A stretch of 19,585 nucleotides of DNA from an uncultured Chitinophagaceae bacterium (GTDB lineage: Bacteria > Bacteroidota > Bacteroidia > Chitinophagales > Chitinophagaceae): the NCBI GenBank assembly GCA_934502905.1, contig CAKSVK010000057.1:1-19585 (forward strand), written 5' to 3'. Under the pieces are notes generated by a model. The model worked only from the letters and a program-made list of their open reading frames with translations, searched no databases and was not told where the DNA came from. Position numbers and translations under genes: made by a program. Shown here in pieces: positions 5,600-16,694 of this stretch. Numbering within the stretch: position 1 is the first letter of the stretch; every line of letters starts with the position of its first letter.

Positions 5600-6544
5600 T
5601 TAATTTGGCAGGTACCCGCTTTCAGCGATAACGCTTTTTCCTGCCGCTGTCTGAAGCAACTTATACAGCTTATACGCCATTGAATTTTCATCGAGGTCTG
5701 AACGGATGGCCGCATACACTTCCGCTACAAAGGGATACTTCCGGCTTTGTAAGGATCCTTTATCCGGGTAAATGCCGTCTATAGCCAGGCTCTTTACCAC
5801 TTTATCCCTTACGATATGCTCCTTGTAATAATAAACGGTATATCCCAACGCATCCACATCATACCGTATGCTCGAAAACACCTGCGACATGCCGGGCAGC
5901 TCAGGCTCATAATCAACAGCAAGATCTCCCATTTCCAACTCCTTCATCACCAATGATTCCATCAATTCCTGGCTGCCCGAATTTTGATTTCTGGTATAAG
6001 GTTTCATAGCTTTATCGTTTCCGCCTACCTCTTTCCAGTTTTTTATTTTACCCATATAAATATCCTGTACCTGCTTCGTGGTCAGCGATTTTACAGGGTT
6101 TTCGAGGTTGGCTACAAAAATAAAAGCGTCAAGCGCTACAGGGGTTTCAATCAGCTGCACACCGGCATTATCCGCATATTCCTTTTCATCCGGAGACATT
6201 TTACGGGCAGTGAGAATAATGTCCGCCTTTTTGTCTATCAGGTTAATGATCGACTGGTGGGTTTGCGAAGATTTTAAACGTTCTGCCACAAAGTCTTGCG
6301 GAAGATCCGTTTTCAAATACCACAGGTTATTCATAAACACAGCCTGCTCCCATTCGTAATTGTATCCCAGGAGCTTACAGGCGATCAACCTGTTCAACGG
6401 ATCTGTAGAAGTAGAGCCGTCTACCTTCGGATAATTCTCCATGGTAATTCCTTCAATCGTCAGGGAAACAACACGCGCTTCTTTTTTGCAGGATCCCGTT
6501 AAAGCAGCTATTAGTGACAGCGATAAAAAAAGTTTATACTTCAT
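5600..6544 (-). CDS. PstS-like phosphate-type substrate-binding lipoprotein
   Basis: 314 residues. The N-terminus MKYKLFLSLSLIAALTGSC is a lipoprotein signal with the acylated Cys at 19, so the mature protein should be membrane-anchored. The body is a type II periplasmic-binding fold of the PBP-like/PstS group. KVDGSTSTDPL (40-50) matches the first phosphate-binding loop, and YTRNQNSGSQELM (183-195) matches the second loop, where PstS has R-x-x-S-G-T. LTTKQVQDIYMGKIKNW (154-170) is a hallmark segment of the family. No pstC, pstA, pstB or phoU lies next to it, so it may be an orphan phosphate sensor or scavenger, or a binding protein linked to another system. The CKKEA start after the lipobox is typical of Bacteroidota lipoproteins. 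The family is fairly clear; the ligand is inference. Confidence 0.85.
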   Translation of the reverse strand: MKYKLFLSLSLIAALTGSCKKEARVVSLTIEGITMENYPKVDGSTSTDPLNRLIACKLLGYNYEWEQAVFMNNLWYLKTDLPQDFVAERLKSSQTHQSIINLIDKKADIILTARKMSPDEKEYADNAGVQLIETPVALDAFIFVANLENPVKSLTTKQVQDIYMGKIKNWKEVGGNDKAMKPYTRNQNSGSQELMESLVMKELEMGDLAVDYEPELPGMSQVFSSIRYDVDALGYTVYYYKEHIVRDKVVKSLAIDGIYPDKGSLQSRKYPFVAEVYAAIRSDLDENSMAYKLYKLLQTAAGKSVIAESGYLPN

Positions 6545-6897
6545 GATCAGGAATATTGTAGGAAATGCTTACTATCAACTCCCCTTGTTCATGTAACATG
6601 GGTTCATTTCCTGCTTTTCAATTATAACCGGTGGCTTTATATGGTTGCTTTTTCATTGAGCGGGGTTTTTTGTCAATCGTTGCACGGGGTATTATTTTTC
6701 CTTCTTGCGCCGGGATCGGCCATACCATACCCAAGTGAATGAAAGCCGCAGAAGCCGGTATAGCCATTCATTAAGAGGTGTTATATTCTTCCCGTTTAAA
6801 AATATGCAGGAAACATCTTCCTGTGACAAACGTCTCCTCCAGATGCCGGGTAAGCAGGCCGGAAGCGCGGCGACTGATAAATATTTTTCATAGGCGG
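6545..6897. other. Intergenic stretch without a recognised gene
   Basis: About 350 bp upstream of the PstS-like gene and before the duplicated uxuA leader. Short open frames here have no family features or plausible starts. A 6-bp hairpin (CAGGAA/TTCCTG at 6807-6823) is the only structure seen. It should contain the minus-strand promoter for the gene at 5600-6544, but no consensus -7 box could be picked. Confidence 0.5.
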
Positions 6898-6947
6898 TCT
6901 TTAAAGATTTTGCTATAGTTTAGCAAAATATAAATATTCATCATATG
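6898..6947 (+). repeat. Second copy of the uxuA leader with palindrome and ATG
   Basis: These 50 bases match 13277-13326 at 47 of 50 positions and end on an ATG at the same place. The palindrome TATAGTTT-AGC-AAACTATA found before uxuA appears here as TATAGTTT-AGC-AAAATATA (6914-6932), one mismatch. Both copies place it 12 bases before the ATG. Weaker similarity (GATAAATATTTTTCAT) continues upstream to about 6875. The identity is read directly from the two sequences. Confidence 0.9.
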
Positions 6948-7165
6948 GACATTGTTAAGTAACAATAAAATGAGCATGGCGATGGTTTGACCCCATTGAT
7001 CCCGGGAAGTGCAGGGGCTAAAACGGGGTGATGTTCAATGTGTTATACCAAGCTGGCGCCATGTTCGCATCATGGAGCGTGGCAGAAAACGGACCTTTTA
7101 TGAAGACGGAACGGCCCCATAAGGATACTATAAAAAAACAAACAGCCTTTAAACCTCTTGTAACA
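6945..7165 (+). pseudogene. Decayed 5' fragment of a mannonate dehydratase (uxuA) gene
   Basis: Following the duplicated leader, the sequence still aligns with the start of uxuA but is full of stops and indels. ATG GAC ATT GTT AAG is followed at once by TAA. The 15-mer CATGGCGATGGTTTG (6975-6989) is identical to uxuA 13349-13363, and one frame reads WRWFDPIDPG where uxuA has WRWFGPNDPV. Further on, CATGGAGCGTGG (7070-7081) resembles the uxuA PHGEVW region. GGATACTATAAAAAAACAAA (7122-7141) resembles the GYIEKYKQSLKNL region, with one frame reading GYYKKTNSL then a stop. Similarity fades near 7165, so only about the first 100 codons are represented, with internal gains and losses. The leader is far better conserved than the coding part. 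The early section is secure; the later alignment was made by eye. Confidence 0.65.
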
Positions 7166-7190
7166 ATATGGCAACAGAAAAAACAGTGAT

Positions 7191-8399
7191 ATGGAAACGC
7201 TGACACTCATCCTGAAAATATTATTTTATTCCGTCAGCGCTGTTGTGGCCTTTTATTTTTTATTGCCGTCGTTATTGTTTGTTGCTTATTGCCTGAAAGG
7301 CGGACTCAAAAAGAAATTCGCACATTCACCCGAAGGCAGGCAATACGAATTTGCCACCATTATCACCGCACACCAGGATGAAAGATTCATTCCCCCGTTC
7401 GTGGATTCATTTTTAAAGCAGGCATATCCTCATTTTAAAGTGTATGTAGTAGCAGACGATTGCGATACCAGCAACCTGCAATATGATGATGAGCGTATCA
7501 TCATCCTGAAGCCGGAAACCGCATTACACTCTAAGATCAGGTCAATTCAATATGCCATCGATCATTTTGTGCAGGAGCCGGACGTGATGATCATCTTCGA
7601 CAGCGATAACCTGGTGCATCCGCAATACCTTCTGAACCTGAACGGGTATTTCCAGCAGGGGTTCAGGGTAGTGCAAACACACATGCTTTCCAAGAACACG
7701 GACACGACCTATGCCCAGCTGGATTCCGTAGGTCATATCTACTATACCTTCCTGGAGCGGAAATCGAAAATGGCGCTGGGGATGTCTTCTTCCATTCTCG
7801 GGTTAGGCATTGCGCTCGACTTTAAGTTATATAAGGAGATCAATTATAAGAATACCGTAGGCGGTTTCGATAAAAAATTACAGGCGCGTATGGCCATGCT
7901 GGTTAAACAGATCGCTTTTGCAGACGATGCAATTGTATATGATGAAAAGGTGGAAGATGCCGTCGTCATGGAAAAGCAAAGGACCCGCTGGATTTATTCC
8001 TATTTTTCGCATGTAAAGGAAAGCTGGCAGTTATTCATCCATGGGCTGAAAACAATGAACCCCGGCAGGATATTATTGGGTGCAAGCATGCTTCGTCCGC
8101 CCATGATCCTGTTGATCTCTTTGCTCATGACCATTCTTGCTGCCAGCTATTTTGTTGATCCGAAGCTGCTGATCGGCTGGGGCATTGTCATCGCATTATT
8201 TGTGCTGACGTTCGTGCTCACCGTGGCAACGCAAAGCTACCAGAAAGGTATGACCGGCTCGCTACGCTTTATCCCGCTGCTGATGATCAGCCAGTTCAAA
8301 TCTTTACTGAAGATAAAGAAGGCTAAAAATAATTTTTTAAAAACAGAGCATAAAAAAGTGATGTACATCGACGAATTATTAAAAAATGAGTGCTCTTAA
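7191..8399 (+). CDS. Membrane glycosyltransferase family 2 (processive synthase type)
   Basis: 402 residues. One N-terminal membrane segment (about 8-35) is followed by a cytoplasmic GT-A domain and then two to three C-terminal membrane segments (about 300-320, 327-347, with an amphipathic stretch near 358-375). Catalytic landmarks are VVADD (86-90) for nucleotide-sugar binding, FDSDN (136-140) as the DxD metal site, GGFDKKLQARM (224-234) around the acceptor-site Asp227, and QRTRW (263-267), the Q/RxxRW motif of processive beta-glycan synthases. It would polymerise or transfer a sugar from a nucleotide donor at the inner membrane. The following deacetylase gene overlaps it, suggesting an N-acetylated product, as in PNAG- or chitooligosaccharide-like glycans; that is inference. 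No PilZ domain or export partner is visible. A decayed uxuA leader copy lies upstream, ending near 7165. Confidence 0.9.
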   Translation: METLTLILKILFYSVSAVVAFYFLLPSLLFVAYCLKGGLKKKFAHSPEGRQYEFATIITAHQDERFIPPFVDSFLKQAYPHFKVYVVADDCDTSNLQYDDERIIILKPETALHSKIRSIQYAIDHFVQEPDVMIIFDSDNLVHPQYLLNLNGYFQQGFRVVQTHMLSKNTDTTYAQLDSVGHIYYTFLERKSKMALGMSSSILGLGIALDFKLYKEINYKNTVGGFDKKLQARMAMLVKQIAFADDAIVYDEKVEDAVVMEKQRTRWIYSYFSHVKESWQLFIHGLKTMNPGRILLGASMLRPPMILLISLLMTILAASYFVDPKLLIGWGIVIALFVLTFVLTVATQSYQKGMTGSLRFIPLLMISQFKSLLKIKKAKNNFLKTEHKKVMYIDELLKNECS

Positions 8400-9393
8400 A
8401 AAGATCTATTACCATACTGCATCATTGCTCCCTATGAGAATGTTCCGCTCAGGCGGTCCCAATCATGTGCTGCTGCCTTATCATCATCTTGTAAGCAATA
8501 AGGATGTGGCGCATATACAGCGCCTCTACAGCTACAAAAATGAAAAGGTATTTACAGATGACCTGGATTTTTTACTGAAGAACTATACGCCTGTTCATCC
8601 CGATGCGCTGTATAATGCAGTTCATACCGGACAGTCGATCCCGAAAGGTTCCTTTCTGCTGACCTTTGACGACGGGCTGAGAGAGGTTTACGATATTATT
8701 GCTCCTCTTCTGCATAAAAAAGGTATTCCGGCCATCTTCTTTATAAACCCGGCTTTTATTGACAATAAGGAGCTTTTTTATCGCTGCAAAATAAGCCTGC
8801 TCATCCATGAGCTGAAGCAGCACAATGCATTACGCCCGTTGTATGCAGGTGTTTTGAAGGTGCCTGTTAACGAAAAAAATATTGTCCATACATTATGCAG
8901 CATTGATCAATGTAATGCACATTTGCTGGATGACATCGCTGCAAAAACGGGTTATTCATTCCGGGAATACCTGGAAAAGCAGCAGCCATTCCTTAACAGG
9001 GAACAATTAATCGCACTTCACCGGCAGGGCTTTACCATTGGCGCGCACAGCATGGACCACCCTTATTACAAACTGCTTCCTGAAGAAGAGCAGGTGCGGC
9101 AGACCATTGATTCCTGCCGCTATGTAAAAGAGCTTACAGGGCAGACCATTTGCCATTTCTCCTTTCCGCATTCCGATGCCGATGTCCCGAAAAAAGTGGT
9201 GGATGCCATCCGTCAACAAAACGAAGGCTTGCTGTTCGGCATACAAAACCAGAAACAGGAGCTGCAGAATAATATCCTGCATCGTTTCAACGCCGAAAGA
9301 CCGGAAATACCTTTTGAGAAGCTCATCAAAGGACAGCTGCTGCTGAACCGGCTGCTACAGCTCGCCGGCAGGAACATTGTGAACAGGACTTAA
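8386..9393 (+). CDS. NodB-type polysaccharide deacetylase
   Basis: 335 residues, starting 14 bases inside the end of the glycosyltransferase gene, so the two are very likely co-transcribed and translationally coupled. The NodB domain begins with LLTFDDG (91-97; D95 and D96 are the base and metal-ligand pair). The zinc histidines are in GAHSMDHPYY (H221 and H225), and FSFPHSDAD (258-266) corresponds to the arginine/proline motif region, although the usual R is replaced by H or S. No signal peptide is seen, so the enzyme may be cytoplasmic or membrane-associated. That fits deacetylation of a lipid-linked or nascent glycan rather than extracellular polymer. About 110 residues (about 126-205) separate the two halves of the active site, longer than in minimal NodB proteins. 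The expected reaction is removal of acetyl groups from N-acetylated sugars made by the partner enzyme. Confidence 0.88.
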   Translation: MSALKKIYYHTASLLPMRMFRSGGPNHVLLPYHHLVSNKDVAHIQRLYSYKNEKVFTDDLDFLLKNYTPVHPDALYNAVHTGQSIPKGSFLLTFDDGLREVYDIIAPLLHKKGIPAIFFINPAFIDNKELFYRCKISLLIHELKQHNALRPLYAGVLKVPVNEKNIVHTLCSIDQCNAHLLDDIAAKTGYSFREYLEKQQPFLNREQLIALHRQGFTIGAHSMDHPYYKLLPEEEQVRQTIDSCRYVKELTGQTICHFSFPHSDADVPKKVVDAIRQQNEGLLFGIQNQKQELQNNILHRFNAERPEIPFEKLIKGQLLLNRLLQLAGRNIVNRT

Positions 9394-9938: not shown

Positions 9939-10397
9939 TTAAAAATGAAAAAGCGGTCGCGGGGTAGGCATAAACGGCCAGGGAATAGAAGTAAAAATAA
10001 GCAACAGGCCAATGGCAAACCATATGGCAGTGGTTTTATGCTTGGCCGCCGCGTCTGTCAGGCGTTTTGCCTTTGCAGATCCGATGGTGATCAATACCAC
10101 CGCAAGGGTCATCATCACCATATGCTCCATCGCAAAAAAACGGACATCACGCTCCTTAACTGCCGTGGAGAAATTATCCCAGAAGTAGGATACAATAGGA
10201 CTGAGAAAATACATAACCACTCCCAGGATAAACTGGATATGAATAACAGATACGGTTATTAATTTCCACCTGTTATCCCCGGAAGTATACGCCCTTCCGG
10301 ACTTCCACCCGGTATAAGCACGATAGATGCAGATCACCAATGTGAGCAGTACGATCCATCTGAGAACAGAATGCAGTAAAATGATATGTGGATGCAT
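9939..10397 (-). CDS. Small four-helix membrane protein with conserved-looking histidines
   Basis: 152 residues with four predicted membrane segments (about 7-27, 45-67, 90-107 and 122-140). Histidines lie inside or at the edge of the first three: H9 in LLHSVLRW, H53 in VIHIQFILG and H92 in MEHMVMM. This layout recalls small cytochrome-b-like membrane proteins of Bacteroidota, where such histidines could hold heme, but no proven haem motif is visible, so heme binding is inference. It is the last gene of a three-gene minus-strand operon, 21 bp after the CoA-transferase gene. Its position suggests a link to redox or electron transfer alongside the SDR. The function is otherwise unknown. Confidence 0.8.
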   Translation of the reverse strand: MHPHIILLHSVLRWIVLLTLVICIYRAYTGWKSGRAYTSGDNRWKLITVSVIHIQFILGVVMYFLSPIVSYFWDNFSTAVKERDVRFFAMEHMVMMTLAVVLITIGSAKAKRLTDAAAKHKTTAIWFAIGLLLIFTSIPWPFMPTPRPLFHF

Positions 10398-10418
10398 AAT
10401 TAATGGGAATTTAAGGGG

Positions 10419-11714
10419 TTATATGCTTTCTTTAAAAAAACGTTGATGCATCGCTTTCTCGAGCGCCTCGCGGTGGTCGGGATGGGCAATGCTGATGAGC
10501 GCTTTTGCTCTTTGCTTCAGGTTTTTACCAAACAGGTTTACCACGCCATATTCGGTTACAACCCAATGTATATGACCACGTGTTGTTACTACTCCGGCGC
10601 CTTCCTTCAGGAAAGGAACGATCCTTGAAATACCTTTTGAAGTAACCGAAGGCATCGCTATAATAGGTTTTCCGCCTTCAGACAATGAAGCGCCCCGCAT
10701 GAAATCCATCTGCCCTCCAATACCTGAATATTGAAATGTGCCGATGGAGTCTGCACAGACCTGCCCGGTCAGATCTATCTCTATAGCGCTGTTGATAGCG
10801 GTCGCTTTCGGGTTCTGCCGGATAATGCTGGTATCGTTTACATAAGCAATATCCATTACCAGGATGGAAGGGTTATTATCAACAAAATCATACAGCTTAC
10901 GCGTTCCGATAAGAAAACTGGTGACGGAAGCACCGGGATTTATTTTTTTGTTTTCATTGGTGATAACACCTTTTTCCAGCAGGGGTATGATCCCGTCTGA
11001 AAACATCTCGGTGTGCAGTCCCAGGTTTTTATGCTGCTCCTGGTTCTTTAAAACTTCATTGGGTATGGTTCCGATCCCCATCTGAAGGGTAGCGCCGTCC
11101 TCGATCAGGGAAGCCACATGGTAGCCAATGCGGGCACTGGCTTCCGTAGAGCCGGATGCATAATCCACTTCAGGCAGGGGCGCGTCATACGCTACGAACG
11201 CATTTATTTTTGAAACATGCACAAAGCTGTCTCCTCCTCCCGTTCTGGGCATATGCCGGTTGACCTGTGCTATGACATATTTTGCCGTATCCACTGCAGA
11301 AGCGGCAATATCCACCGAGGTGCCCAGCGAACAGTATCCATGCTTATCCGGTGGCGACACCTGTATCAATGCCACATCCAGCGGTAATATCGATCTTTTA
11401 AAAAGCTGCGGTATCTGGCTCAGGAATATGGGTACGTAATCACCTGCTTCGCTGTTGGCGATTGCCCGGGTATTGGCCGATACAAAAAGAGAATTGAAGA
11501 AAAAGCTCTTCCGGTATTCCGGCTTATTAAACTCAAGCGCACCGAGGTTGGTAATACTTACCAGCTCCACGTCGCGCAATTCGGCATGTCTCGATAATAA
11601 AGCGTTTATCAGATAAACCGGCGTAGCGGCGCTGCCATGCAAAAAAACCCTGTTCCCGGACTGGACGATCTGTACCGCTTCTTCAGCCGTACGGTAATTG
11701 ATAGATGCGTTCAT
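10419..11714 (-). CDS. Acetyl-CoA hydrolase / 4-hydroxybutyrate CoA-transferase family protein
   Basis: 431 residues, full length for the family. Enzymes of this class move CoA between acyl-CoA and a free carboxylic acid through a glutamyl-CoA thioester. The expected catalytic glutamate is E236 in LGLHTEMFSDGI (231-242). The oxyanion and CoA-binding loop GIGGQMDF is at 331-338, and VSPPDKHGYCSLG (119-131) is the conserved N-terminal-half motif. TTRGHIHWVVTEYGVVNLFG near the C-terminus is also diagnostic. It sits 5 bp after the SDR gene and 21 bp before a membrane-protein gene, so all three are probably one transcript. An SDR plus CoA-transferase suggests handling of a hydroxy- or keto-acid, such as a 3- or 4-hydroxybutyrate-type compound. 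The exact acyl substrate is not readable; acetate or propionate CoA-transfer is an equal alternative. Confidence 0.9.
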   Translation of the reverse strand: MNASINYRTAEEAVQIVQSGNRVFLHGSAATPVYLINALLSRHAELRDVELVSITNLGALEFNKPEYRKSFFFNSLFVSANTRAIANSEAGDYVPIFLSQIPQLFKRSILPLDVALIQVSPPDKHGYCSLGTSVDIAASAVDTAKYVIAQVNRHMPRTGGGDSFVHVSKINAFVAYDAPLPEVDYASGSTEASARIGYHVASLIEDGATLQMGIGTIPNEVLKNQEQHKNLGLHTEMFSDGIIPLLEKGVITNENKKINPGASVTSFLIGTRKLYDFVDNNPSILVMDIAYVNDTSIIRQNPKATAINSAIEIDLTGQVCADSIGTFQYSGIGGQMDFMRGASLSEGGKPIIAMPSVTSKGISRIVPFLKEGAGVVTTRGHIHWVVTEYGVVNLFGKNLKQRAKALISIAHPDHREALEKAMHQRFFKESI

Positions 11715-11719
11715 TCGAA

Positions 11720-12469
11720 TTATTTGGACAAATATCCGCCATCTACGGCATAATAACTACCTGTTACAAACGAAGCTTTGTCGGAACCGAGCCAAACAAC
11801 CAGTTCTGCCACTTCAGATGCTTCACCGAGCCTGCCGATTGGATGCTGGGATACCAGGAACTGTTTCATTTCCGCACTCAGGTTATCAAGCAGGGGCGTA
11901 TTGATGAAAGCAGGTCCGACGGCATTTACACGAATACCTTTTGCGCTGTATTCCAACGCAGCGGTTTTGGTAAGTCCTATCACACCATGTTTGGCTGCTA
12001 CGTAACCCGCTGCTGTGTTGAACCCAATCTGGCCCAAAATAGAAGACATATTTATAATACTGCCTTTGCCTTGCCTGAGCATCTGCTCCAACTGCAGCTT
12101 CATACAATAAAACACACTGTTGAGATTAACGTCTATCACCTTCAGCCACCCTTCTACACTCATATCGGCCACATCATTGGGCTCACCACCTATTCCGGCG
12201 TTGTTAACAGCAATATCCAGGCTTCCGAATTCCTTTACAGCAGCGGCAACCAGGTGCTTGCAATCCTCATATTTGCTGACATCGGCCGTTACAAAAATAC
12301 AGTCTGCGCCCTTTGCTTTGATTTGCTGTACGGCCTCCTCGCCTGATGGCCGATTGATATCGGAAATAACCACCTTGGCACCATATGCCGCATACAATTC
12401 AGCAACGGCTTTTCCAATTCCGGAACTGCCCCCTGTAACAAGGACTACCTTCCCTTTAATATCATTCAT
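11720..12469 (-). CDS. Short-chain dehydrogenase/reductase, NAD-preferring type
   Basis: 249 residues, a classical SDR. The cofactor loop TGGSSGIG is at 12-19, and D37 ends the second strand (VVISD), which favours NAD over NADP. NNAG is at 89-92. The catalytic tetrad is N115 (DVNLN), S143 (NMSS), Y156 and K160 (YVAAK). The C-terminal IRVNAVGPAFINTPL and VTGSYYAVDGG are typical of hydroxy-acid, acetoin or sugar-alcohol dehydrogenases. It is the first gene of the minus-strand operon with the CoA-transferase (5-bp gap) and the membrane protein. The likely role is reversible oxidation of a hydroxy compound whose carboxylate or ketone product is then activated by CoA. The substrate is unknown. Confidence 0.93.
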   Translation of the reverse strand: MNDIKGKVVLVTGGSSGIGKAVAELYAAYGAKVVISDINRPSGEEAVQQIKAKGADCIFVTADVSKYEDCKHLVAAAVKEFGSLDIAVNNAGIGGEPNDVADMSVEGWLKVIDVNLNSVFYCMKLQLEQMLRQGKGSIINMSSILGQIGFNTAAGYVAAKHGVIGLTKTAALEYSAKGIRVNAVGPAFINTPLLDNLSAEMKQFLVSQHPIGRLGEASEVAELVVWLGSDKASFVTGSYYAVDGGYLSK

Positions 12470-12573
12470 GTTGATCGGTTTTAATTTCCCGCAAGTTCCT
12501 GAATATGTACCACAAGCAGCAAAGATGAGGTCAGTTGCTTATATGACTTTGATCAAGTATTACCATCAAAATG

Positions 12574-12605
12574 ACAAAAGCAACAGATCAGTCTGTTGCT
12601 TTTGT
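12574..12605 (-). terminator. Strong hairpin terminator after the small lipoprotein gene
   Basis: ACAAAAGCAACAG (12574-12586) and CTGTTGCTTTTGT (12593-12605) pair perfectly over 13 bp with a 6-nt loop. On the minus strand the 3' arm ends TTTTGT, and the hairpin begins 24 bp after the stop of the gene at 12630-13139. It should insulate that gene from the downstream SDR operon. Confidence 0.8.
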
Positions 12606-12629
12606 TCCATATAAAGTACCTGATCAGGA

Positions 12630-13139
12630 TCAGAATGTATATTTTGCAAATTTCGCTTTACCAGACGGAACGAAATTGACAACTACGTCTGATGCTTTGT
12701 CCCAGGAGAAATCTTTTGAGCCATCTTCCTCAATCACTTCTTCAAGTATTTCCAGGTCAAAACCGTAAGTGCCTCTTACATACAGATCCTTTCCTTCTTT
12801 CAATATGCTACCATCAGCTTTATAGGTGACAGCATTAAACTTCAATTTATAATTGTTCTCTTTATCAATGGCAACAATTTCCATTTTACCATATAAGCCT
12901 GATGAAGTCTTGTAAATTAATACATCCGAAGGTTTCATGACCAGTCCGTCCGCGTTGCTGGCTTCAAACTCATCAGACGACAAGGTGGCGTCTTTAGCGG
13001 CAATATGTTCTCTTTTGATATCTGCGTAAGCCGTAACCTTCTCTTCAGGTTTGTTTTCGGGCTTATCCTCTTTTTTACAGGAAGATACCATTGTTACTAA
13101 CAGGGAAGAAAAAAGGAAAAAATTCGCAATCTTTTTCAT
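12630..13139 (-). CDS. Small acidic lipoprotein of unknown function
   Basis: 169 residues. MKKIANFFLFSSLLVTMVSSC is a lipoprotein signal with Cys21, followed by CKKEDKP and a proline/glutamate/lysine-rich tether (about 22-36). The body is rich in Asp, Glu and beta-prone stretches (VLIYKTSSGLYGKMEIVAID, LYVRGTYGFDLEIL, SDVVVNFVPSGKAKFAKYTF). It is predicted to sit on a membrane facing the periplasm or the cell surface. No family was recognised. It diverges from uxuA across 184 bp containing the 19-bp palindrome, so the two might share control, and it is closed by a strong terminator. A 6-bp hairpin (13174-13190) lies in its 5' region. Confidence 0.8.
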   Translation of the reverse strand: MKKIANFFLFSSLLVTMVSSCKKEDKPENKPEEKVTAYADIKREHIAAKDATLSSDEFEASNADGLVMKPSDVLIYKTSSGLYGKMEIVAIDKENNYKLKFNAVTYKADGSILKEGKDLYVRGTYGFDLEILEEVIEEDGSKDFSWDKASDVVVNFVPSGKAKFAKYTF

Positions 13140-13276
13140 TTGGATAAGATTTTAAATAATGAATGAAAAATATCCGGAATACCCTTCCGGTAAGGAACGA
13201 TCATTAAACGGTGTCCTGTATATTTTATTATAAACAGGTTACACAGACTGCGAATGATAAATATTTTCATGTATGA

Positions 13277-13326
13277 TCTTTAAGGATTTTACTATAGTTT
13301 AGCAAACTATAAATATTCATCATATG
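13277..13326 (+). promoter_or_regulatory. uxuA leader with 19-bp palindrome
   Basis: TATAGTTTAGCAAACTATA (13293-13311) is a perfect 8-bp inverted repeat around AGC, 12 bases before the uxuA ATG. It has the size of an operator for a dimeric regulator such as LacI or GntR types, or could fold as a hairpin in the mRNA just before the start codon. TAGTTTAG within it resembles the -7 consensus with one mismatch. The block is repeated at 6898-6947 with 47/50 identity, which supports a specific function. Confidence 0.65.
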
Positions 13327-14496
13327 CATATTAAGCAACTACAGCAAACATGGCGATGGTTTGGCCCAAACGATCCTGTAAGCCTCCAGGATATTAACCA
13401 CGCCGGTGCCCAGGGTATTGTAACAGCCCTTCACCATATTCCGCATGGTGAAGTGTGGAGCCGGGAAGAAATACAAAAAAGAATTGATGAGCTGAAAGCA
13501 GGTGGTTTTGAATGGAGCGTGGTTGAAAGCCTGACTGTTCATGAAGATATTAAGAGAAGAAGCGGGGACTATGCAGGATATATTGAAAAATACAAGCAGT
13601 CACTGAAGAACCTCGCCGCGCTGAAAGTGAACATTGTGACCTATAATTTCATGCCGGTGAACGACTGGACGAGGACGGATATCAACTATACTGTAGCCGA
13701 CGGATCTAAAGCGCTGTATTTCAACTGGACGGATATGGCTGTATTTGATATTCATATACTGAAAAGAAAAAATGCAGCGCAAAGCTATCCTGAACGTATA
13801 ACCGAAAAAGCAGAAAAAAAATTTGCCGGCATGAGCGGGGCAGACAGGCAATTGCTGACAGATACTGTGGTATTCGGTATACCGGGAGAAGAAAAAAGAA
13901 CCCCGGAAGGCATGCGCAGGGAGCTGGAGAAATACAGCGATATCGACAGCCAAGCGCTCAAGGAAAACCTGGCTTATTTCCTGCAGGAGGTGGCACCCGT
14001 TGCCTCCGAATATGGCATCCGCCTGGCCATACACCCGGACGATCCCCCGTTTGATATCCTCGGGTTACCCAGGATCGTATGCAACAGGAAAGACCTGGCC
14101 GATATCATATCTTTTTCAAACGCGCCGGCCAACGGCTTGTGCTTCTGTACGGGCTCCCTGGGCGCCAATCCCGCGAATCAATTGCCGGAAATGATCGAAA
14201 CCTTCAATAAAAGGATCCATTTTGCCCACCTGAGGAATGTAAGCCGGGATGCGGAAGGTAATTTTTACGAAGCAGACCACCTGGTAGGCGACGTGGATAT
14301 GTACAAGGTGGTAAAGGCCCTGCTGAAAGTGCAACAGGACGTTACACATGAGATACCCTTCAGACCCGACCATGGGCACCAGATGCTGGACGATCTGAAA
14401 AAAGTGACCAACCCCGGGTATTCCGCTATCGGCCGCTTACGCGGACTGGCTGAAATACGCGGACTGGAGCTGGGAATAACCAGGAACTGGCAGTAA
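13324..14496 (+). CDS. uxuA: Mannonate dehydratase
   Basis: 390 residues, full family length. UxuA dehydrates D-mannonate to 2-keto-3-deoxy-D-gluconate in the cytoplasmic hexuronate (glucuronate) breakdown pathway and needs Mn2+. It is a TIM-barrel protein. The metal and active-site residues are visible as H237 in IRLAIHPDDPP, C275 in LCFCTGSLGA, H302 in FAHLRNV and D349 in FRPDHGHQML. TWRWFGPNDPVSL at the N-terminus and TYNFMPVNDWTRTD (about 106-119) are conserved family segments. No uxaC, uxuB or transporter lies beside it, so the remaining pathway genes must be elsewhere. It diverges from a small lipoprotein gene. Its leader carries a perfect palindrome, and leader plus gene start are duplicated in decayed form at 6898-7165. 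The start at 13324 is set by the leader and by homology. Confidence 0.95.
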   Translation: MHIKQLQQTWRWFGPNDPVSLQDINHAGAQGIVTALHHIPHGEVWSREEIQKRIDELKAGGFEWSVVESLTVHEDIKRRSGDYAGYIEKYKQSLKNLAALKVNIVTYNFMPVNDWTRTDINYTVADGSKALYFNWTDMAVFDIHILKRKNAAQSYPERITEKAEKKFAGMSGADRQLLTDTVVFGIPGEEKRTPEGMRRELEKYSDIDSQALKENLAYFLQEVAPVASEYGIRLAIHPDDPPFDILGLPRIVCNRKDLADIISFSNAPANGLCFCTGSLGANPANQLPEMIETFNKRIHFAHLRNVSRDAEGNFYEADHLVGDVDMYKVVKALLKVQQDVTHEIPFRPDHGHQMLDDLKKVTNPGYSAIGRLRGLAEIRGLELGITRNWQ

Positions 14497-14559
14497 TATG
14501 CATGTAAGCAAGCAATAGGGACAGCTTAAGTACATTGATCTAACAGAAAATAAATTATA

Positions 14560-14593
14560 GCGAGCCGGATAGAAGGTATTTCATCCGGCTTGC
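14560..14593. terminator. Hairpin downstream of uxuA
   Basis: GCGAGCCGGAT (14560-14570) pairs with ATCCGGCTTGC (14583-14593) over 11 positions with one G-U, and a 12-nt loop. It begins 63 bp after the uxuA stop. The following bases (TCAATG) are not a T-run, so termination would be factor-assisted at best. Confidence 0.4.
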
Positions 14594-14629
14594 TCAATGT
14601 ATAGGGGTTAAGCTGTTACAAACCTATGC

Positions 14630-14658
14630 CCCGGGAACCTTGTGCAAGGACACGCAAC
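14630..14658. repeat. Copy 2 of the cccggga/ggacacgcaac element
   Basis: CCCGGGA (14630-14636) and GGACACGCAAC (14648-14658) occur in the same order and within one base of the same spacing as at 2942-2969. The arm between them has diverged (TTGTGCAA against TTGCGTG), so the inner hairpin of copy 1 is lost here. Both copies are intergenic. Confidence 0.5.
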
Positions 14659-14707
14659 GGGACGGGATGCCCTGCACGTGAGGGAAAATGCAGATAGCAT
14701 CCATCAA

Positions 14708-14743
14708 TAAAAAACTGCCATTGCTTCTACAACAACGGCAGTT
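14708..14743 (-). terminator. Terminator of the accB-accC operon
   Basis: On the minus strand AACTGCC-x-TTG pairs with its partner (arms 14733-14743 and 14713-14723, one internal mismatch), followed by a T-rich run (complement of AATAAAAAA ending near 14714). It starts 23 bp after the accC stop. This is a standard intrinsic terminator. Confidence 0.7.
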
Positions 14744-14765
14744 CAATATAATGTTCTGTGATTAT

Positions 14766-16103
14766 TTACAGCATTGTGAAATTGTCCAGGAATTTGGTAG
14801 TGAAATTACCTTTCCTGAAATCTTCATTACGCATGAGCTGCTGGTGGAACGGAATAGTTGTTTTCACTCCTTCAATCACATATTCGCTCAGCGCCCTGCT
14901 CATGGTATTAATAGCTTCCTGCCGGGTCCTGGCCACAGAAATGATCTTACCGATCATGGAATCATAATAAGGAGGTATTACGTACCCCGCATAAATATGA
15001 GAGTCGATGCGTACGCCATGACCACCGGGCTGGTGTAACACAGTGATCTTACCAGGTGACGGACGGAAGTCATTGTACGGGTCTTCAGCATTGATACGGC
15101 ATTCTATTGCATGCATTTCCGGATAGTAGTTCCTGCCGGAAATAGATTCCCCGGAAGCTATTTTAATCTGCTCCTTAATGAGATCGAAATTCGTTACCTC
15201 TTCCGTAACACAGTGTTCTACCTGGATACGGGTATTCATTTCCATAAAATAAAAATTCTTGTGCTTATCCACAAGAAACTCTATTGTACCCACACTCTCG
15301 TAGTTGATGGCAGAAGCGGCCTTCACAGCAGCCTCTCCCATTTTCTCACGGAGATCATTCGTCATGAACGGCGACGGCGACTCTTCTACCAGCTTCTGGT
15401 GGCGGCGTTGAATAGAACAATCCCTTTCGCTCATATGGCAAACCTTGCCGTACCTGTCACCGGCTATTTGTATTTCTATATGCCTGGGCTCTTCTACAAA
15501 CTTCTCTATGTATACCCCGTCATTTTTAAATGATGCCGCAGCTTCCGCCTTGGCTGTAGAATAAGCATGTTCCATTTCACTCTCTTCCCATACCACGCGC
15601 ATTCCCTTACCACCACCACCGGCAGTTGCCTTTAAAATAACCGGGTATCCGATTTCTTTTGCAATACCTTTTGCATGATCAACACTTTCCAGCAACCCGC
15701 CGCCACCCGGCACTACCGGCACGCCCGCCCTGATCATTGTTTCTTTGGCGGTGATCTTGTCTCCCATAGCTGTGATCATCTCCGGCTTGGGACCAATGAA
15801 CTTAATGCCGTGTTCACCGCAGATCTGGGCGAAACGGGCATTTTCCGCTAAAAATCCGTAACCGGGATGTATAGCATCCGCATTGGTTATTTCGGCGGCT
15901 GCCATCAGGTGAGGTATATTAAGATAAGAATCGCTGCTCTGCGGACGACCGATACATACAGCCTCATCGGCAAACTTAACGTGCAGGCTGTCCTTGTCGG
16001 CCGTAGAGTATACCGCTACGGTTTTAATACCCATTTCACGGCAGGTGCGAATCACGCGCAGGGCTATTTCCCCGCGATTCGCAATTAATATTTTCTTTAG
16101 CAT
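14766..16103 (-). CDS. accC: Acetyl-CoA carboxylase, biotin carboxylase subunit
   Basis: 445 residues, the usual length. AccC carboxylates the biotin of AccB with bicarbonate and ATP, the first step of fatty-acid synthesis in the cytoplasm. The ATP-grasp landmarks are all present: [19 protein letters not shown] at the start, PGYGFLAEN (80-88), the glycine-rich ATP loop AGGGGKGM (161-168), [12 protein letters not shown] (226-237), and the metal and catalytic segment [11 protein letters not shown] (287-297). There E288, N290, R292 and E296 match the known catalytic residues by number as well as by motif. It follows accB after 102 bp that contain a hairpin and is closed by a terminator. The carboxyltransferase subunits are not in the window. 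Similar subunits serve propionyl- or methylcrotonyl-CoA carboxylases, but the short separate accB beside it favours acetyl-CoA carboxylase. Confidence 0.96.
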
Positions 16104-16124
16104 TTATTCAATTTGAAAATTAGG

Positions 16125-16140
16125 TCCCGCCATTGCGGGA
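16125..16140. other. Hairpin in the accB-accC spacer
   Basis: TCCCGC (16125-16130) pairs perfectly with GCGGGA (16135-16140) around a CATT loop, flanked by A/T-rich arms that pair partly (GAAAATTA before, TGAAAATTTG after). It lies inside the operon transcript, 22 bp before accC, where it could tune the ratio of the two products or mark an RNA-processing site. No function is shown. Confidence 0.45.
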
Positions 16141-16205
16141 TGAAAATTTGAGAAACAACTTTACGCCGCGAACCCGACCCATTTTCACAGCTACAAACTT
16201 TCAAA

Positions 16206-16694
16206 TTAATTAGGTTCCACTAAAAAGAGCGGTTGATCGTATTCTACGGGGCTGGCATCTTCTACAAGCACTTTTACTACTTTGCCGCCTACTTCACTTT
16301 CAATCTCGTTGAACAGCTTCATCGCCTCGATAATGCAAACAATTTTACCCGGCGCCACATCATCTCCCACTTCCACCAATGCCGGCTTATCCGGTGAGGA
16401 ACGCCTGTAAAAAGTTCCGATCATCGGGCTCTTGATGGTAAGCAGGTTATCTGCCTTAGGCTCTGCACCCTTCCCTTTATCCTGGCCAGTCCCGGCAGCC
16501 GGTGCTGTTTGCTGGGCCACGGGGGGTGAAACTACCTGCGGAACCGCATACGCCTGGGGAGCAGATACGATCTGGGTTACCTGGTCTTCTTTCTGCTTTA
16601 TAGTTATCTTAAATTCTTTTTCTTCAATTACAAGTTCTCCGATATTAGACTTATTGATAATCTTTATCAACTCCTGAATTTGTTTAAAATCCAT
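16206..16694 (-). CDS. accB: Biotin carboxyl carrier protein of acetyl-CoA carboxylase
   Basis: 162 residues. The N-terminal helix region MDFKQIQELIKIINKSNIGE and EFKITIKQ is typical of AccB. A flexible Ala/Pro/Gln linker follows (about 45-80). The C-terminal biotinyl domain runs from about 85 to 160, with IKSPMIGTFYRRSSPD, the thumb-like insertion, and EAMKLFNEI, where K126 should carry the biotin. The protein shuttles carboxyl-biotin between AccC and the carboxyltransferase. It precedes accC in the same direction. A candidate promoter lies 52 bp upstream of the ATG. The start is fixed by the conserved N-terminal helix. Confidence 0.95.
   Translation of the reverse strand: MDFKQIQELIKIINKSNIGELVIEEKEFKITIKQKEDQVTQIVSAPQAYAVPQVVSPPVAQQTAPAAGTGQDKGKGAEPKADNLLTIKSPMIGTFYRRSSPDKPALVEVGDDVAPGKIVCIIEAMKLFNEIESEVGGKVVKVLVEDASPVEYDQPLFLVEPN

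Follow-up and report, generated by a model that had tools for sequence, protein, structure and literature searches.

Promoter capture, in which a rearrangement sets the 5′ region of one gene ahead of another, is well known from laboratory evolution. In the citT case from long-term evolution of E. coli, the captured element was reportedly the 5′ region of another gene, placed in the sense direction by way of a new joint between unrelated genes. The event is described as promoter capture by duplication in the E. coli long-term evolution experiment (citT; PMC4718724). Old natural captures should be hard to recognise, because the joint itself decays.

The promoters of the Bacteroidota are described as a −33/−7 pair (TTTG/TANNTTTG, refined to TAHHTTTG; PMC6847099), with TAnnTTGY given as the −7 variant of F. 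psychrophilum (PMC9723704).

We describe here a block in a 19,585-nucleotide stretch from an uncultured Chitinophagaceae bacterium (this whole stretch is referred to hereafter as the window) where, as in a promoter capture, the 5′ region of a donor gene, uxuA, stands in the sense direction ahead of a GT2 glycosyltransferase gene that appears cut off from its operon.

Results

The window holds an intact uxuA (mannonate dehydratase, 390 aa, 13324–14496, + strand; NCBIfam TIGR00695, 503 bits), preceded by the leader (13250–13326, + strand) that alignment identifies as the parent of the copy. The copied leader lies upstream, on the same contig and in the same orientation, 6.4 kb away. By blastn, uxuA-derived homology spans 6870–7002 against 13250–13376 (133 bp, 79.7%, E ~1e-26), such that homology to the leader begins 28 bases upstream of 6898, at 6870/13250. 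The upstream part of the duplicated leader (6870–6897, + strand) falls within this match and aligns well up to 6891, after which a diverged patch (6892–6897, + strand) retains 1 of 6 matches to 13271–13276. There follows the preserved core (6898–6947, + strand), identical to 13277–13326 at 47 of 50 positions and terminating in the ATG; this block had been picked out in the initial annotation of the region, and the alignment bears it out. From its ATG runs a frame of five codons and a stop (6945–6962), possibly encoding a leader peptide, MDIVK.

Further copies of two core leader motifs were sought in the window at up to 2 mismatches, and there are none. The nearest genome found, G126 (UxuA 88% identical), came from a search of 394 genomes followed by one of its genus; when 12 genomes of that genus were searched with 6860–7190, the block was not found and the best match was the uxuA of G126 itself (E 0.0016). 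When the uxuA leader and gene start were searched as DNA across the family, 69 of the 394 genomes gave a match, mostly in the coding part only; some of the longer matches reach back into the leader, by ~37 bases from the ATG in G126 and G242 and by ~17 in G313.

Past the ATG, stops and frameshifts break all frames of the copy, with pieces of uxuA persisting in order to ~7150. We place this decayed coding remnant at 6948–7157 (+ strand, right border uncertain within ~7145–7159); it reaches to about codon 97 of uxuA and contains a gap of ~66 bp, smaller indels and a weakly matched portion (7003–7071). A 15-mer, CATGGCGATGGTTTG (6974–6988), is identical in copy and parent, and WRWFDPIDPG is readable in one frame, confirming two earlier observations; 6948–6973 is identical to uxuA at 11 of 22 positions. 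Past the ATG, local alignment reaches a score of 36, where 1000 dinucleotide shuffles get no higher than 31; frameshift-tolerant alignment of 6945–7190 with UxuA reaches 68, and the highest of 60 shuffles 41.

The alignment beyond the leader against shuffled sequence, which the initial annotation had proposed as a check, was significant for two of three stretches taken separately. Positions 7072–7107 match uxuA 13513–13548 with a score of 18 (best shuffle 15.5; 0/1000 as good), and 7108–7159 match the expected stretch 13549–13640 with 12.5 (best shuffle 12.0; 0/1000; 6/1000 as good when set against uxuA 1–300), supporting the piece GYYKKTNSL read there previously. Against orthologues, 7072–7107 score 12 in G126 (15/1000 shuffles as good) and 21 in G362 (0/1000), and 7108–7159 score 17.5 in G126 (1/1000) and 8.5 in G362 (463/1000), with control comparisons to the GT gene and to uxuA 600–900 giving no match (at least 348/1000 shuffles as good). 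The third stretch, 7003–7071, is not significant alone (58/1000 against uxuA 1–300, 315/1000 against 13360–13460); an anchored extension through it scores 7.5, with 0/300 shuffles as good and 1 of 138 scanned anchors higher (8.0). The chained alignment places the ~66-bp uxuA gap near 7071. A gap-free register up to 7083 was dropped as the true alignment; 7072–7107 fits uxuA 13513–13548 better.

Mismatches in the copy are spread flatly over the codon (16/44, 18/45 and 17/43 at the three positions in the gap-free register; 23-19-21, 17-9-14, 20-18-20 and 20-20-19 at positions 1-2-3 in four chained alignments), as against 1/46, 2/46 and 16/45 between the uxuA genes of the window and G126 over the same stretch. 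Hence the copy is a genuine pseudogene of uxuA, pairing colinear, significant homology to an intact parent with a disrupted frame and lost codon constraint.

The leader has changed more slowly than this remnant. Its identity of 47/50 (94%) compares with 139/202, 111/151, 144/202 and 115/174 (66–74%) for the coding part under four gap settings, giving p values of 1.2e-4, 1.4e-3, 3.8e-4 and 5.1e-5 in the same order; the contrast is conservative, since the four alignments favour the coding part, and its leader side amounts to 3 changes in 50 bases. The much better preservation of the leader, as first proposed in the initial annotation, is therefore upheld whether the coding part is taken at 111/151 or at 144/202. 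Nor is the uxuA leader slow between species, as the leaders of the window and G126 are discordant at 13 of the 49 sites aligned. There the copied leader follows the uxuA of the window 11:0, whereas at the 18 discordant sites of the coding part the split is 8:9 (p 0.004 against the leader); in the four chained alignments the coding part divides 13:12, 10:6, 12:12 and 15:9 between window and G126 (p 0.006, 0.054, 0.005 and 0.033). This pattern supports the view that the leader may have been retained for a role, most simply that of a captured promoter, or else homogenised by gene conversion.

Between the remnant and GT2 we find a short segment (7158–7189, + strand) encoding PLVTIWQQKKQ and a stop. 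It matches two loci, L001 (Chitinophagaceae bacterium UBA2793) and L002 (Ferruginibacter sp. MAG), with 88% identity across 26 bp (E 0.002, four sequences searched), both of which carry, as the gene ahead of GT2, a methyltransferase (Pfam PF13489, E 1e-26 and 8e-25) with the C-terminus GGFVTVWQKKK; compared with this, VTIWQQKK is clearly the best of the 39122 six-frame 8-mers of the window, scoring 39 where the next scores 23. Gene order points the same way. Of 32 distinct GT loci, 8 have a methyltransferase immediately before GT2 (L001, L002, L012, L013, L014, L019, L021 and L026), and in L007 and L011 it sits one glycosyltransferase further upstream; the 32 comprise relatives from a GT2 protein search and the best of 106 genomes with a match, two uxuA loci and one repeat having been excluded from 35. 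The segment ~7158–7189 is thus probably the tail of a methyltransferase gene rather than uxuA, a well-supported assignment, with a border to the remnant uncertain by ~15 bases. The uxuA origin given initially for 6898–7165 consequently stands to ~7150, its last part most likely belonging to another gene.

A competing match exists between 7161–7186 and L097 of G398 (26 bp, 92%, E 0.0027), at the start of an oxidoreductase-like gene (MQTEKTDVLVIGAGPSG; named by eye). This origin was set aside as one chance-level match among 12 genomes; the methyltransferase reading is preferred because of place and gene order, a methyltransferase being what is expected here. Extending that reading leftward failed by every approach: for the whole of 7003–7157, frameshift-tolerant alignment left 50 and 51 of 60 shuffles as good and DNA extension anchored at the tail and run leftward 133 and 129 of 300, and for 7084–7159 local DNA alignment left 822, 461 and 996 of 1000 as good at three loci. 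With a methyltransferase tail lying between remnant and GT2, the block is best read as a joint, running from the uxuA leader and decayed 5′ part through a methyltransferase 3′ end into GT2 and its neighbour.

Both genes beyond the joint are intact: GT2 (402 aa, 7191–8399, + strand; Pfam PF13641) and a polysaccharide deacetylase overlapping it (335 aa, 8386–9393, + strand; Pfam PF01522). Against L001, GT2 is 83% identical in amino acids, above its nucleotide identity of 73%, and its closest relatives found (83%, 78% and 67%) are from other Chitinophagaceae-type MAGs; within the genus of G126, GT2 is matched at E < 1e-30 in 1 of 12 genomes, at 40% identity. The pair fits best as a truncated piece of an operon acquired horizontally, although loss from the other genomes may instead explain its absence in the genus. 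Remnants of other polysaccharide operon genes (from L001 and L002) were sought elsewhere in the window, and none was convincing (best E 0.001, 31 residues within 2229–2321). A PstS-like binding protein at 5600–6544 is matched in 0 of 12 genus genomes at E < 1e-20, in a search run without a positive control; the left side of the window may have come from outside the genus.

The intact uxuA is probably in its ancestral place and the copy at 6870 derived, because SDR, CoA-transferase-like and small membrane genes adjoin uxuA in G126 as in the window. We also observe that, comparing 9939–16694 with L085 of G126, the segment from small membrane gene to uxuA is inverted relative to accC-accB-MG2, and that in G126 three genes, two of them acetyltransferase-like, separate accC from the membrane gene (all names by eye). 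A small lipoprotein-like gene (12630–13139, named by eye, without a Pfam or NCBIfam match) sits between SDR and uxuA in the window; G126 has only 187 bases between them. As to how the joint arose, a tandem duplication with ends in uxuA and the methyltransferase gene would give exactly this arrangement if the rest of the left copy were then lost, and plain insertion of ~300 bp of uxuA may equally have produced it, the two being indistinguishable.

Within the preserved core, a box TAGTTTAG (6916–6923, + strand) occurs 29 bases before the ATG. The same box is found at −29 in the uxuA leader of the window (13295) and at −28 in G126, and TACTTTGC at −25 to −27 in 4 of 8 other genus uxuA leaders examined. 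This nearly fixed distance from the ATG resembles Bacteroidota −33/−7 promoters, and the TACTTTGC of the four relatives fits TAnnTTGY; TAGTTTAG itself, in contrast, fits neither TAHHTTTG nor TAnnTTGY exactly, departing from the former at two bases (G at the third, A for the last T). Over 105 upstream regions (window plus eight genus stretches) TAHHTTTG is enriched (14 against 5.1 expected), as is TAHHTTTGC (8 against 1.4), whereas TAnnTTAG, the form of TAGTTTAG, is not (3 against 3.4). It is thus the position and conservation of TAGTTTAG, not its fit to a consensus, that make it a candidate −7-like promoter element. No TAnnTTTG occurs on the + strand of 6545–7190, which makes the copied leader the best candidate for the start of GT2-deacetylase transcription, and the + strand of 6545–7260 holds no terminator-like site. 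An E. coli-type promoter scan returned 3 sites against 1.5 expected, with a consensus that is not informative for this phylum.

The initial annotation had suggested that the leader is kept for its own role, for example in control of the glycosyltransferase unit. Retention fits the 47/50 core beside a decayed coding part and the 11:0 split; control of GT2 fares less well, lacking an exact Bacteroidota −7 motif. The search for the block upstream of related GT2 genes, which had been put forward as a test, found it in 0 of 32 loci and argues against a conserved element, albeit weakly, with GT2 there in another context. The best match of the copied leader to these loci has an E of 0.11 over 14 bp; in L010, 41 bp at 73% (E 0.37) span the GT start. 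Separately, 17 consecutive bases of L009 (3791–3807), ~1.1 kb upstream of GT2 and in its direction, agree exactly with the upstream portion of the uxuA leader (E 0.002); the core box falls outside them, and the agreement is probably chance.

Both leaders contain perfect 8-bp inverted repeats in overlapping registers, TATAGTTT-AGC-AAACTATA in uxuA (13293–13311) and TTTTGCTA-TAGTT-TAGCAAAA in the copy (6908–6928), and of the three bases at which the leaders differ, two complete the repeat of the copy. On a very unlikely reading, these would be signs of a leader preserved for some uxuA-linked regulator or RNA function, whether as an operator placing polysaccharide genes under hexuronate control, as a regulator decoy or through the leader peptide MDIVK. 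Such repeats number 5 in the window, where 10 mononucleotide shuffles average 1.6 (range 0 to 4), the RNA hairpin of the copy is better than 195 of 200 shuffles, and the ATG and start region are preserved. Speaking against such a role, the centres of the two repeats lie 5 bases apart, none of 9 genus leaders has a perfect repeat at the same place (G398 has one elsewhere), the fold of the intact uxuA leader is ordinary (37/200 shuffles as good), and no Rfam family, and hence no known structured RNA leader or riboswitch, matches the window at gathering score. A literature search returned no paper on uxuA regulons of Bacteroidetes. It is quite unlikely, in our estimate, that the duplicated leader put GT2-deacetylase under the control of hexuronate breakdown, the differences between leaders having tuned a copied operator (TTTTGCTA-N5-TAGCAAAA); were it so, extracellular polysaccharide modification would be switched together with uronic acid use.

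Discussion

This block is best explained, in our view, by a truncated polysaccharide operon having captured the uxuA promoter, a reading to which we would give close to an even chance. A rearrangement would have fused a copy of the uxuA 5′ end (leader and up to ~97 codons) to the last codons of a methyltransferase gene, forming a joint directly ahead of GT2 and deacetylase genes that had themselves been excised from a larger polysaccharide operon. Unconstrained, the copied codons would then have decayed, with the leader, its promoter, start region and ATG kept as the new transcription start for the pair. GT2 is read as cut off from its own operon because a methyltransferase directly precedes it in 8 of the 32 loci, and a gene so cut off would need a new promoter. 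The frames of both genes have stayed intact, with GT2 better conserved in amino acids than in nucleotides, and the region ahead of them offers neither a consensus −7 motif nor a terminator-like site on the + strand. Set against this, TAGTTTAG is off consensus at two bases, the block recurs in none of the GT loci, the patch 6892–6897 has diverged where a −33 element could lie, and preservation extends to the start codon of uxuA, which a GT2 promoter would not need; the leader comparison is based on few changes, and the methyltransferase tail has its chance rival in G398.

Rather unlikely, in our judgement, is that the block is a functionless relic whose leader was lately homogenised with that of intact uxuA by gene conversion between direct repeats 6.4 kb apart. 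The repeats do share orientation and contig, a short tract would leave the leader at 11:0 beside a mixed coding part, and the identical 15-mer (6974–6988) could be a second tract; yet 6892–6897 diverges within an otherwise preserved leader, and the core stops at the ATG, a boundary of function to which conversion would be blind and one that leans us towards selection. Decidedly unlikely is a neutral relic with a leader that serves no purpose and owes its count of 3 changes in 50 bases to luck: the numbers are small, identity also varies within the coding part (from the identical 15-mer to 11/22 at 6948–6973), and the block was found neither in the 12 genus genomes nor in the 32 GT loci, but p values of 5e-5 to 1.4e-3 were obtained even with alignments favouring the coding part, and uxuA leaders otherwise change fast. 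From this balance we infer a transcription start in the copied leader, and its upkeep by selection rather than by gene conversion. The anatomy of the block is well supported; the function proposed for it is plausible.

Beyond what was recognised initially, the probable methyltransferase tail turns a puzzling relic into a recognisable joint. Several features make the locus legible: an intact donor gene close at hand, relatives that reveal which operon was truncated, and a useless part whose decay acts as a built-in clock, making the retained part conspicuous by comparison. Should promoter capture be confirmed here, it would show how an acquired operon fragment gains a control region.

The copy shares with an ordinary truncated uxuA pseudogene its stops, frameshifts, flat codon-position mismatches and an intact parent 6.4 kb away, and differs from it in a non-coding leader far better preserved than the coding part. 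With the citT promoter capture it shares a rearrangement that sets the 5′ region of another gene, in the sense direction, before a gene via a new joint; it differs in being a natural event, of an age at which the donor coding part has decayed by ~30%, and in that the case is known from sequence alone, with tandem duplication only one possible route. The block in the window looks like a natural, old example of this known kind of event.
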